Source of the DNA: Gemmataceae bacterium | Lineage (GTDB): Bacteria; Planctomycetota; Planctomycetia; Gemmatales; Gemmataceae | Assembly (NCBI GenBank): GCA_009692005.1 | Contig: SHZZ01000006.1 | Location: 1 to 64,000 of the forward strand | DNA length: 64,000 nt | Reading direction: 5' to 3' | Shown here: positions 7,160-11,722 of the stretch, piece after piece | Layout of the letters: each line of letters opens with the position of its first letter | Position numbering within the stretch: the first letter of the stretch is position 1 | Made by a program: the position numbers and the translations under genes | The notes under the pieces: model-generated | What the model was told of the DNA's origin: nothing | The model's input: the letters and a program-made list of their open reading frames with translations, nothing else | Database searches by the model: none

Positions 7160-8521
7160 ATGACTAGCAGCAGTATTAAAGCAAGTAACCACACCTCCAA
7201 GTCGGGAACACTTCCCGCCTTAATGTTTGGCATTCCCCTGGCAGTGGGATTTTGGTCCCTGGCCATGTTTGGCCCCATCGAAATCCCCTTATTGAAACGG
7301 TACCTGGGCCACCCGGTGGAGTTGGTGGAAATCATCATGTTTTCTTGCGCCATGGCTGCCCTGGCCTGGAAGTACCTGTCCAATCGCCGGGAAAACGCCG
7401 CCTTAAAAAGCGACTTGCTTCCATCCTGGGATGAGAAACTTGTGTCCCCCCTGGAGGCAAAAAAACTCCTGGAACGACTGGACACCTCGCCGGTTTGGTT
7501 GACAAAAACCATGGTGTTCAGGCGAGTTTACATTGCCTTGGGCTTTGTCAGGCAGCGGGGATCCGCCGAGGATTTGGATGATCAACTGCGCTCAGCTTCC
7601 GACATGGACTCTTTGGAAATGGATGGAAGTTTTGGCTTAACCCGTTTCATCACCTGGGCCATTCCAATCCTGGGTTTTTTGGGAACCGTCTTGGGGATTA
7701 CCGGGGCCATTTCCGGAGTAACCCCGGAGATGCTCGAAAAATCCATGAGCACCGTCACCGACGGCCTGGCACTCGCGTTCGATGCCACAGCCCTCGCTCT
7801 GGGGCTCACCATGGCCTGCATGTTCACCAGTTTCTTGGTGGAAAAATCAGGGGAACAGATCCTGGAAAAATTGGATCAATGGCTCGACCGGGAAATTTCG
7901 CATCGCTTTATCCGTGTGGGAACGGATCAAGGGCCGGTAATGGAAATTCTCAACCGCCATATTCAGGAATTGACGCAAAACTCTCAGTCCCTGGTGAAAA
8001 CCCAGGTGGATCTTTGGGGCCAAGCCATGGAAAAACTGGAGCAGCGTCAAAATGATTTGGCGCAAACCAGTATGCTCGTGGTTAAAACAGGATTGGAAGG
8101 GGCGCTCTCCTCTTCCCTGGAAATTCATCGGCGCAGCCAGGCACAACAAGAAGAGGCTTCCTCCAATTTGTCCAGAACTTTGGCTGGGCAAATGGGATTG
8201 GCGGCCCAGGCAATCCGTGAAGCGGGAAGGGACCAGCATACCGCTATTTCAACCATGCTGGAGGGCATGAGCAGACAGACCGCAGTCTTGGCTGAATTGC
8301 AACATGGGGAAAAACACCTGGTTCAATTACAGCGAGTTTTGCAGGAAAACCTCCAGCATTTGACTCAATCAGGGGAATTCCTTGAAGCGGTCCATTGCCT
8401 GACCGCGGCGGCGCACATGTTGACTTCGAAAGTTCAGGGAAGGCCTTCCGAACCTTTTTCCTATTCGGTCAACCCCCCGGCAAGTGGTCCTAACTGGGGA
8501 TCACCCGGAAAGGCGGCATGA
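7160..8521 (+). CDS. MotA/TolQ/ExbB-family proton channel protein with coiled-coil tail
   Basis: A 453-residue inner-membrane protein. Two hydrophobic segments lie near the N-terminus, and the typical TolQ/ExbB pair follows, with the conserved GFLGTVLGITGA segment and FDATALALGLTM carrying the Thr that lines the ion path in this family. After this comes a long, probably cytoplasmic tail of about 200 residues rich in Gln, Glu and Leu that should form coiled coil. I chose the ATG at 7160 because GGGAG lies 8 bases before it. The ATG at 7136 and the upstream ATG at 7040 are in frame but have weaker ribosome sites. The next gene overlaps the stop by 4 bases (ATGA). It is probably the ion-conducting subunit of a stator complex with the next two proteins. 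Confidence 0.85.
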   Translation: MTSSSIKASNHTSKSGTLPALMFGIPLAVGFWSLAMFGPIEIPLLKRYLGHPVELVEIIMFSCAMAALAWKYLSNRRENAALKSDLLPSWDEKLVSPLEAKKLLERLDTSPVWLTKTMVFRRVYIALGFVRQRGSAEDLDDQLRSASDMDSLEMDGSFGLTRFITWAIPILGFLGTVLGITGAISGVTPEMLEKSMSTVTDGLALAFDATALALGLTMACMFTSFLVEKSGEQILEKLDQWLDREISHRFIRVGTDQGPVMEILNRHIQELTQNSQSLVKTQVDLWGQAMEKLEQRQNDLAQTSMLVVKTGLEGALSSSLEIHRRSQAQQEEASSNLSRTLAGQMGLAAQAIREAGRDQHTAISTMLEGMSRQTAVLAELQHGEKHLVQLQRVLQENLQHLTQSGEFLEAVHCLTAAAHMLTSKVQGRPSEPFSYSVNPPASGPNWGSPGKAA

Positions 8522-10656
8522 AGCGGCGAAAAAAGTTAGAAGTCTCGACTTTTCCTTTCCTCGCTGTGCTCCTTTGCACCATGGGATCGTTGATCCTTTT
8601 GCTTTTGGTTATTGATCGGAAAGCCAAGAAGGCGGCATTGGAAAAAACTTATGAAGCCGCGCGCCTGGCACAGGATAAAAACTCGCAAGACTCTGGCCTG
8701 TCAGCCAAATTGCGACGGGAAGAAAAATCCCGGCTTCTCGAGAAGGAAACCCAATTAGATTCACAAATCTCACGCTGGAAATCGGAGTGGGAAGGCGCCT
8801 TGCAAAACAGCCTTGAACAAAAAGCCGCCGAGGCCCGGCTTAATCAGGTCGTTGCTAAAAAACAACAACTTCTCCTTTCGATTCGGGCAGCCAGCCAGGA
8901 TCTGGAAAAAACCAAAGGGGGCAAAGGCCTGTTAGGAAAATCACCTGAGGATAAAACTCAAGAGCTGCAAGTTAACATCAACCGTTTGGAAGGATTGCTG
9001 AACGAACATAAAATTTCCAAAGACCGGGACACCCCTTCGTTTTCCATTGTGCCCTATTTCGGAAATCAGGGTTCCAATCGCAGACCGCTTTATCTCGAAT
9101 GCACGGAAGCCGGGATTATGTTCCATCCCGACGGGATGTTGTTTAGCCCAAAAGAGAACCCTGGTGAACTAGCATCAGAACTGCGACATCGGACAGGATT
9201 GCTGCGCGCCTTGCTCCAAGCCACCAAGGATGACCCTAACCCAGTTCCTTATCTGATGATTCTCATTCGGCCAAAGGGCATTGCCCATTACTGGAATTTT
9301 CAAGCCATTTTGAAGCAATTTGACCTGGAATTCGGCTACGAACTCGTTGACCAGGAGTGGAAGATTGCCATTCCCGAGGAACATTCCGCGCCAGCGCCAA
9401 AAGTCCTCGCGGCCATGGTTCAAAAGGCAGGTGGCTTACCCAGGCCCATGCCGGCGCCTGGAATTTTTCCTGGCGGGGCAAACCTGAATAATCCACCCAA
9501 GTGGCTTGACGGTTCGGCGGGGAATTCCGGTCGTCAAGGCCCAGTACAAAACAGTTTTGGCGCCAGCGCAAAAACCGTTCAACCCATTCAAGGGCCACCT
9601 GGCTTTCCCCTGGCGCGAGGCAACCCTCCTTCCTTTCCTGGGTCCAAGGGAAATGGGCTCAATGGCATTGATCCCTATGCCATTGGAGGAAAAAGTAAAA
9701 CGGAAATCCCCACAGGTTTTGGGGAAAATCCTGGCAGCAATCCGAACAACCAAATTTTTCCAAACAACCAAGGCAATTCCCTATCTAACAACCAAGTCAA
9801 ACAAAATGGGTTGATCAACTCCTTGGGCAAGGACGGAAAAGGAAATGAAAACAAGCAAAATAACAAACCCGAAGGAATAGAAGGTGATGGCATCCCTGGT
9901 AACTCCCCAGCCATGACGGGATCACCAGGAATTGGCAAAGGGTTGTCCAATTCCGAACCAGGTTCAGGCAAACCAACCAAGAGTGGTAATCCACAAGGGA
10001 ATTCCTCGGAAATGGAAAAAGCTTTGGCTCAAAACAAGGAGTATTCCAAAGCGGGAAAGGAAAATGGCTTGCCAAAACAACCGGGAACACCCACTCAGAA
10101 AATGGTAAATCCCAATGGCCCGCCGCAAAACATTTCCCTTTCTCCCAAGCAAAGCGAAGCCAACCTGGAAAATCCGCGGCCATTGCCACGAACCACCTAT
10201 GCACCTCCTTCCTTCCCCGATCAATCAACCGACCAAGAAACATTGAGCAAAGTCGCGGTTCCTTTGCCCGAATTGGGTCCGCGGAAATCACAAACTCCTG
10301 CACCCCTTCGCCCTGCCAGAATTTTTGCCGACCGGGATTGGCCAATTTTCCTGGAATGTAAGTTTGACGAACTCGTATTGCACCCAAACCAGGTGCGAAT
10401 TCCCACGACGGAACTGGGCCAAGGCGCCGGTCTGCTAACCCTTAATGAGGAAATCAAAAGGATGATTCGCAAGAAACAAGAAACATTGCGTCCTGGCGAG
10501 GCGCCCTACCGGGCGCAAATCCGGTTTCTGGTTTGGCCCGATGGGTTGCGGTCCTACCACCTTGCCTACCCAGTGCTGGAATGGATGAAATTGCCTCAAA
10601 CCAGGCAAAACCTCGATGCCGACGACAACCTTACAGAAGTATTGAACCGAAGGTGA
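8518..10656 (+). CDS. TolR/ExbD-like membrane-anchored protein without the membrane Asp, with Gly/Asn-rich linker
   Basis: A 712-residue protein with a basic N-terminus (MKRRKK) and one membrane segment at residues 12-32. Within it FLAVLLCTMGSL lines up with FLDVVANVVGII of the next protein, with Ala16 at the place of the Asp. A coiled coil follows (about 35-165). Residues about 190-270 form one periplasmic module (from LECTEAGIMFHP to LIRPKGIAHYWN). A Gly/Asn/Pro/Gln/Ser-rich linker covers about 300-600. A second copy of the module ends the protein (about 608-695: FLECKFDELVLHP, FLVWPDGLRSYH). The module resembles the TolR/ExbD periplasmic domain in layout (inference). It overlaps the channel gene by 4 bases. 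Confidence 0.75.
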   Translation: MKRRKKLEVSTFPFLAVLLCTMGSLILLLLVIDRKAKKAALEKTYEAARLAQDKNSQDSGLSAKLRREEKSRLLEKETQLDSQISRWKSEWEGALQNSLEQKAAEARLNQVVAKKQQLLLSIRAASQDLEKTKGGKGLLGKSPEDKTQELQVNINRLEGLLNEHKISKDRDTPSFSIVPYFGNQGSNRRPLYLECTEAGIMFHPDGMLFSPKENPGELASELRHRTGLLRALLQATKDDPNPVPYLMILIRPKGIAHYWNFQAILKQFDLEFGYELVDQEWKIAIPEEHSAPAPKVLAAMVQKAGGLPRPMPAPGIFPGGANLNNPPKWLDGSAGNSGRQGPVQNSFGASAKTVQPIQGPPGFPLARGNPPSFPGSKGNGLNGIDPYAIGGKSKTEIPTGFGENPGSNPNNQIFPNNQGNSLSNNQVKQNGLINSLGKDGKGNENKQNNKPEGIEGDGIPGNSPAMTGSPGIGKGLSNSEPGSGKPTKSGNPQGNSSEMEKALAQNKEYSKAGKENGLPKQPGTPTQKMVNPNGPPQNISLSPKQSEANLENPRPLPRTTYAPPSFPDQSTDQETLSKVAVPLPELGPRKSQTPAPLRPARIFADRDWPIFLECKFDELVLHPNQVRIPTTELGQGAGLLTLNEEIKRMIRKKQETLRPGEAPYRAQIRFLVWPDGLRSYHLAYPVLEWMKLPQTRQNLDADDNLTEVLNRR

Positions 10657-10663
10657 CCCACGG

Positions 10664-11722
10664 ATGCTTCGTCGCAGACGGCCGAAAAAAGGCATTCATT
10701 TCAGCTTTGACTCCTTCCTGGATGTCGTTGCCAATGTGGTAGGCATTATCATCCGGTTGATTCTCGTGGCCTGGGTCGGAGCCAAATCCTACAAGGGAAT
10801 AGAGTTGCCCGCGAATTTATCCCAACCCCCGGCCCTGTTGGGCGTGGAGGAGAGCATGCAACCCCTGGCCCAGAGGGTAGGGGAAAAAGAAATGGCAGCG
10901 GTAAAGTGGGGGGAAATATCCGCTGGTTTGAAAATAAAAGGGCAACGAGAAAAACTGCGGGAAACCGACAGCGCCTTCACCCAGATGGAACGAGACCTTC
11001 AACATCTCGTCAAGGAAGAAAAATCGTTGAAGATGGAGTTGCGTAATAAACAGGAACTGGAGAATTTCCAAAAGCAAAACCTGGGCAAGGGCCTTGAGAA
11101 ATTAACCAAGTTGGAGGCCGAATATTTGGCTTTGAAAAAGTCCAGGGGGCCGGTTCAGGAACTCCGGTATCAAACCCCAGTAAGCAAAACCCTGCAATCG
11201 GAAGAACTTCTTTTTGAATGCCGCCATGGCCGAGTGACCGCAATTGACATTGGTTCCATGCTGGAGGAAATCGGCGGGCAAATGCAGGGCCTGGGAGAGC
11301 GGTTGCGCACCCAGTGGGAAGTGGAGGACACTTCACAGCCCCATGGGGCATTTCGCATGCGTTTTACCGTCGAAAGGATAAAAACCGCCCTGGAATTGTC
11401 AGCGCCTAACGCCCCGCCTGATAGCCGAGGCAATTTTCGCTTTGCCTTAACTGGTTGGGAAATGCAAGGCTTGGACCCTGAGCGGGGGGAGACCCTGGAA
11501 CAGGCTTTACAACCCCAGGCGGAATTCATGCGCATTCTGAACGGGTTGGACCACAATAACACCGCCATCACCTTTTGCGTTTACCCTGACAGTTTTCCTT
11601 TATACCGGCGGCTAAGGGATTTAACCCACGAAAAGAAATTCGTGGTGGCGGGCAGACCTCTCATGGTGGAAGCGCCCATTGCCATGTCGGTTAAAAAAGG
11701 GACGGCATCGCGCGGGCAGTAA
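10664..11722 (+). CDS. TolR/ExbD-like membrane-anchored protein carrying the membrane Asp
   Basis: A 352-residue protein, third gene of the channel unit, starting 7 bases after the previous stop with AAGGTGA as ribosome site. The N-terminus is basic (MLRRRRPKKG), followed by one membrane segment at about residues 15-40. Asp20 in SFDSFLDVV sits where ExbD and TolR have their ion-carrying Asp. An Arg at residue 31 inside the segment is unusual. Residues 75-160 are predicted coiled coil. The periplasmic end (180-330) repeats the module seen twice in the preceding protein (LFECRHGRVTAIDI, then FCVYPDSFPLYRRL). I infer that it pairs with the preceding protein inside an ExbB-type ring. It ends 1 base before the convergent pfp stop. 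Confidence 0.75.
   Translation: MLRRRRPKKGIHFSFDSFLDVVANVVGIIIRLILVAWVGAKSYKGIELPANLSQPPALLGVEESMQPLAQRVGEKEMAAVKWGEISAGLKIKGQREKLRETDSAFTQMERDLQHLVKEEKSLKMELRNKQELENFQKQNLGKGLEKLTKLEAEYLALKKSRGPVQELRYQTPVSKTLQSEELLFECRHGRVTAIDIGSMLEEIGGQMQGLGERLRTQWEVEDTSQPHGAFRMRFTVERIKTALELSAPNAPPDSRGNFRFALTGWEMQGLDPERGETLEQALQPQAEFMRILNGLDHNNTAITFCVYPDSFPLYRRLRDLTHEKKFVVAGRPLMVEAPIAMSVKKGTASRGQ

Follow-up and report, generated by a model that had tools for sequence, protein, structure and literature searches.

The locus described here raises the question of whether an ion-driven membrane motor can work with two unequal plug subunits, of which one alone carries the aspartate that binds the ion. Three adjacent genes, A, B and C, occupy positions 7160-11722 of the window (the whole 64,000-nt stretch of Gemmataceae contig SHZZ01000006.1 that was analysed), all on the forward strand. 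A (7160..8521, +) encodes a channel protein of the MotA/TolQ/ExbB family (453 aa), B (8518..10656, +) an Asp-less plug subunit (712 aa) and C (10664..11722, +) an Asp-bearing plug subunit (352 aa). The gene order, the 4-base overlap of A and B (ATGA) and the 7-base gap between B and C are as originally predicted. By sequence, the flanking reading frames are glycosidase-like and 6-phosphofructokinase-like. The 4.19-Mb genome contains two further MotA/ExbB genes and three ExbD genes, and thus the trio coexists with ordinary ExbBD systems; outside the window, at locus L244 (G000 contig 57, bases 75144-76626), an ordinary ExbB gene is followed by two ExbD genes. On balance, we favour a reading in which A, B and C form a single inner-membrane ion-driven 5:2 motor, where five copies of A surround one B and one C.

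A matches PF01618 (MotA_ExbB) with E 2.6e-9 and 37.3 bits against a curated cut-off of 22.9, and is therefore a member of the MotA/TolQ/ExbB superfamily. It had been taken for an ExbB/TolQ-type protein, which holds for the family and not for the topology: A has four hydrophobic segments (residues 20-38, 52-70, 160-178 and 203-221), a MotA/ZorA-like arrangement, while ExbB and TolQ have three. The tail of about 200 residues expected on A is present at that length (~200-230 residues) and has, in the family alignment, a conserved tip, FxEAVHxLTAAxHLLTxK/R. This tip is common to the two types of channel protein described below (LTAAxHLLTxR in both) and may bind a cytoplasmic partner. A also matches the PADLOC ZorA2 profile (E 2.8e-9), and a long cytoplasmic tail of the channel protein is likewise found in the Zorya complex ZorAB, whose ZorB subunit dimerises with itself and has a peptidoglycan-binding domain (PMC11890865). 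Identity with Zorya, which this match had raised, was rejected, as B and C have no PADLOC match and no Zorya gene adjoins A; within the window, no Zorya partner genes were found beside the trio.

Both partners begin with a membrane segment, FPFLAVLLCTMGSL in B and DSFLDVVANVVGII in C. These segments were compared without the rest of the proteins to exclude coiled-coil bias, and the two profiles aligned over 42 columns without a gap (E 1.3e-6), with Ala16 of B (codon GCT; 8563..8565, +) over Asp20 of C (codon GAT; 10721..10723, +), the putative ion-carrying residue. Both the matching segments and the Ala/Asp pair of the original prediction are thus borne out, the latter in the codons as well. 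As controls, the B and C segments were compared with the four membrane segments of A; seven of these eight comparisons gave E 0.12-0.65, and the eighth (B against the second segment of A) gave E 9e-4 across 20 columns. Full-length profiles of B and C match with a probability of 98.5 and E 1.9e-15, which further supports the view of B and C as homologous plug-type subunits. Their relation to ExbD is looser. In a Pfam scan no family, PF02472 included, matched B or C with E of 1 or less, so that neither is an ExbD/TolR member by profile match, and no meaningful NCBIfam match was seen. Against ExbD profiles built from the ExbD proteins of 21 genomes, the membrane segment of C matched with E 0.015 and that of B with E 0.067, both weak, with the same columns landing on the ExbD Asp, and the domains matched PF02472 weakly as well (E 0.07 and 0.14). 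At the profile level, a relation of B and C to ExbD proteins is suggestive. A single N-terminal membrane segment with Asp at the ExbD position is found in C, in all 106 loci with A, and not in B of the window.

The two proteins differ in what follows the membrane segment. In the AlphaFold2 model of B, the membrane helix is followed by a stalk of long helices up to residue 170, a first ExbD-like periplasmic domain (residues 174-284; 9037..9369, +) with the conserved block VPYFGxxG...LYxEC...GYELVD, and then disorder: a low-complexity linker (residues 306-602; 9433..10323, +), mostly with pLDDT <50, in which 46 Pro, 43 Gly and 34 Asn are found among 297 residues. A second ExbD-like domain (residues 607-698; 10336..10611, +) is modelled confidently. 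For this domain the best VIA-align match was ExbD 8p9r (Z 7.8, rmsd 2.3, 70 of 74 residues), followed by TolR 5by4 (Z 7.7) and ExbD 8vgd (Z 7.6), although unrelated folds reached Z 7.0-7.3; the modelled resemblance to ExbD/TolR is therefore good but not conclusive. C is modelled (mean pLDDT 85.5) as a membrane helix (residues 16-42), a long helix (67-159) and a periplasmic domain (180-342), for which the VIA-align matches listed were all unrelated folds with Z 5.6 at most, ExbD not being among them. Foldseek searches of the PDB with B and with C gave no significant match. C ends in Ser-x-x-Gln (11708-11719), a possible docking motif kept in most loci, including those that lack A.

A single-sequence search detected C in 39 of 95 family genomes, and a profile search in 164 of 199 Planctomycetia genomes; among 246 genomes sampled evenly across the phylum 29 matched, of which 15 belong to the class. 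Searched against genome contigs, the single C sequence found nothing and the alignment as query gave matches. The usual order is A-B-C; B and C are neighbours in nearly all loci where both could be read, mostly with A, and within the family they are kept together or lost together. One locus (L055) has a C gene, and a motif search upstream detected no B. Clustering of reading frames around 119 loci for a constant partner gene found the commonest neighbours in 25 loci; as such neighbours fit lineage-level synteny and their orientation varies across the class, we name no partner gene.

The asymmetry between B and C had been predicted to be fixed, with acid at B position 16 as the finding that would speak against it. 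Within the family, B16 is Ala in all 27 members with a readable N-terminus. The wider class set gave a different answer and disposed of the idea, drawn from the family set, that Asp in B never occurs. Asp in C was retained in all 106 loci with A, and beside channel proteins of type A1, B16 was neutral in 82 of 83 cases (76 Ala, 3 Ser and 3 Thr, with 1 Asp). On the other hand, where a second type, A2, is the only channel protein, B16 was acidic in 15 of 23 cases (14 Asp and 1 Glu; the others being 7 Ala and 1 Ser), bearing in mind that the genomes compared are mostly draft assemblies, in which an absent A1 may be an assembly gap. The predicted conservation of the Ala16/Asp20 pair thus stands for C and for B beside A1, and fails in most of the A2-only loci, so that "fixed" was too strong a word. 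Considering that the acidic exceptions accompany a changed channel protein, we argue that position 16 of B matters.

For A-B-C loci the channel type was read from gene order, and for all others from profile scores. In the A tree, built like our other trees by a quick method, A2 proteins form a clade (starred branch, support 100); in a search of 298 genomes they scored at least 504 bits and the rest at most 275. Six alignment columns separate A1 from A2 at >80% each, and all six lie within TM3-TM4. The differences include Gly-Ile-Thr to His-Phe-Gly in TM3 (Gly179-Ile180-Thr181 of A, 7694..7702, +; GIT in A1-type, HFG in A2-type) and Asp208 to Asn in TM4 (7781..7783, +), where 81 of 83 A1-type proteins have Asp and all 26 A2-type proteins have Asn. 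In the A tree, the channel proteins of acidic-B loci fall in one clade (starred, 100), with L192 and the paralogous trios as exceptions. The trees of B and C instead scatter the acidic-B loci beside A-B-C loci with Ala: L215 groups with L193 (starred, 100), a B-C-A clade groups with L185 and L201 (starred, 99), and L133 and L134 fall among L125, L126 and L135, on branches that bear no star. This scatter suggests that acid in B was gained repeatedly. At least five label changes are forced by supported branches, and the best tree has 10. Eight independent pairs with branch support contrast in A type; B16 differs in the same direction in four or five of them and in the opposite direction in none, the remaining pairs having no B16 difference, which gives a sign test of 5:0 at best (two-sided p 0.06); a Fisher test (p 1e-11, uncorrected) ignores kinship and is not counted as evidence. 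The association of acid at B16 with A2 thus appears repeated and one-directional, while falling short of formal significance. The coupling is not strict, since B retains Ala or Ser in eight genomes with A2 alone and since acid occurs in B of L192; the rule that B has Asp whenever A2 replaces A1 was accordingly rejected. In G232, G248 and G113, both A types are present and B keeps Ala.

Several exceptional loci bear on the placement of B. At L343 (G533, A2 only), B retains its domains (E 1.6e-108) and has a C-type membrane segment, SFLDVLANMVGILIILLVI, with SFLDVLANMVG; it looks as if the segment had been exchanged between the partner genes. At L347 (G521), B16 is Glu (FPFLEMLLSTLG), and an A2-type channel protein is encoded elsewhere in the genome. 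Among A-B-C loci, L192 alone has Asp in B; the A protein there groups with A1 on a long branch, has an altered TM3 (LGFVGTIGGL) and is possibly a third channel type. L100-L104, L211 and L213 group with an Isosphaeraceae record in one clade (starred, 99) and have no A at the locus, and a search for A in five genomes with such loci gave generic matches only. In L100-L104, the membrane segment of C lacks the Asp motif; throughout the group, the periplasmic domains of both B and C are retained and may have a task that does not involve the motor. In the paralogous trios L236, L238 and L241 and the paralogous partner genes of L262 and L263, B has FPFLS and C has DSLLD; the pairing of a neutral residue with Asp recurs in these paralogues, which lie beside an A wherever the locus was readable. 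The more distant trios L239 (FAFQD) and L264 have Asp in both partners.

Taken with the association of B16 with channel type, G533 and the Isosphaeraceae-type loci suggest that B16 faces the channel of A, and therefore that B and C probably share one plug, with residue 16 of B and Asp20 of C looking into one lumen. The simplest account of the plug acids is one with A1 and often two with A2. In the motor that we propose, one B and one C would form the plug inside the A pentamer, and, as C alone supplies a protonatable Asp, the plug would have one ion site instead of two. Ions would pass the Asp of C, aided by Thr176 and Thr181 in TM3 and Asp208 in TM4 of A, and their passage would move the plug, and with it the periplasmic domains and helical stalks of both partners. 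The ExbD-like end of B, on its flexible linker of ~300 residues, could extend far into the periplasm in the manner of TonB/TolA, and we suggest that linker and end domain could carry force or contact across it. We infer the stoichiometry, the heterodimer, the single-site cycle, the ion species and the cell-envelope task of the trio. That B and C form an obligate heterodimer with a single ion site, and that the two-acid version evolved repeatedly after replacement of the channel protein, we put forward more tentatively, at slightly less than even chances.

Homodimers of C would account for part of the data too, if B packs at another site. C could be an ordinary two-Asp homodimer inside the A pentamer (A5C2), as the Asp-bearing subunits of known motors self-dimerise, and B a transducer whose helix lies outside the pentamer; B is indeed built like TonB/TolA, with one N-terminal membrane segment, a Pro/Gly/Asn-rich linker of ~300 residues and a small end domain, and a neutral B16 is what one would expect if B does not carry ions. 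We nevertheless consider this unlikely, because the membrane segment of B is a clear homologue of that of C in the same register, because acidity at B16 tracks changes in TM3-TM4 of A (taken as lumen-lining by analogy with known motors), because a C-type segment has been swapped into B of G533, and because a gain of acid exactly at the Asp position is unexpected for a helix outside the pentamer. Still less probable, in our estimate, are two alternative complexes, a conducting A5C2 and a silent or regulatory A5B2, or mixtures of these. Each partner does have a complete plug-type membrane segment, stalk and periplasmic domain, and the same choice has been left open for AglRQ and AglRS (PMC9389320), but B and C are kept and lost jointly in the family, and in most lineages A5B2 would have no plug acid, Asp208 of A being its only membrane acid.

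That residue, five per ring, could itself be the main proton carrier of A1 motors, comparable to GldL Glu49, with A2 motors placing acid in the plug as Asp208 changes to Asn; a B-C heterodimer would then be optional. The near-complete Asp/Asn split between A1 and A2, the confinement of acid in B almost entirely to A2 loci, and the reliance of GldLM on a glutamate of the pentamer subunit (PMC8986121) all fit such a scheme. At the same time, the A1 loci L123 and L124 combine Asn208 with a B that has Ala or Ser, and the eight A2-only genomes with a neutral B have neither acid, so that the acid swap is not strict; the Asp of C, moreover, is invariant. We regard this scheme as improbable, to about the same degree as the C homodimer.

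The original prediction held that no system of this kind had been characterised, which is too strong, since AglR/AglQ/AglS of Myxococcus is comparable and is the nearest characterised arrangement to the trio. In this gliding motor of Myxococcus xanthus, a single cluster likewise contains a MotA/TolQ-type gene with two ExbD/TolR-type genes after it (PMC3169522, PMC9389320). AglQ and AglS are both described as carrying the membrane Asp, and it is stated to be unknown whether each pairs with the other or with itself (PMC9389320); in the planctomycete trio, the Asp is found in C only in most lineages, B16 of the window being Ala. With 162 and 194 aa, AglQ and AglS are short members of PF02472, unlike the long B and C without a PF02472 match, and gliding genes were not seen linked to the planctomycete trio. 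ExbBD-TonB and TolQRA share with the trio an ExbD/TolR-like domain, in the last domain of B, and a long TonB/TolA-like linker, but in the trio the extended protein B has a plug-type membrane segment. In the flagellar stator MotAB, MotB pairs with itself, so that the dimer has two equal Asp residues, and it ends in an OmpA-like domain. MotAB resembles the trio in the fold family of A (MotA_ExbB) with its four hydrophobic segments and in the single membrane segment with a conserved Asp of C, and differs from it in the two equal plug Asp residues, the trio having mostly one. In GldLM the likeness lies in an acid within a membrane segment of the pentamer subunit (Asp208 of A, Glu49 of GldL; PMC8986121). 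The trio differs from it in that GldM, like MotB, is a homodimer. Among the open-access papers searched, we found none on the planctomycete trio.

In the general model of 5:2 motors, the plug acts as a turnstile with two equal acids, which gives 10 ions per turn and steps of 36 degrees (PMC9389320). By the same reasoning a one-acid plug, if it exists, would pass at most five ions per turn in 72-degree steps, or would not rotate fully, and would challenge the view that 5:2 motors require two equal ion sites. Related genomes with one or two plug acids would be a natural test of the turnstile model, and the family would offer a natural series of motors with one acid and with two. As the trio is present in most of the Planctomycetia sampled and is apparently uncharacterised in the papers searched, it may serve these bacteria as a core motor of the envelope.
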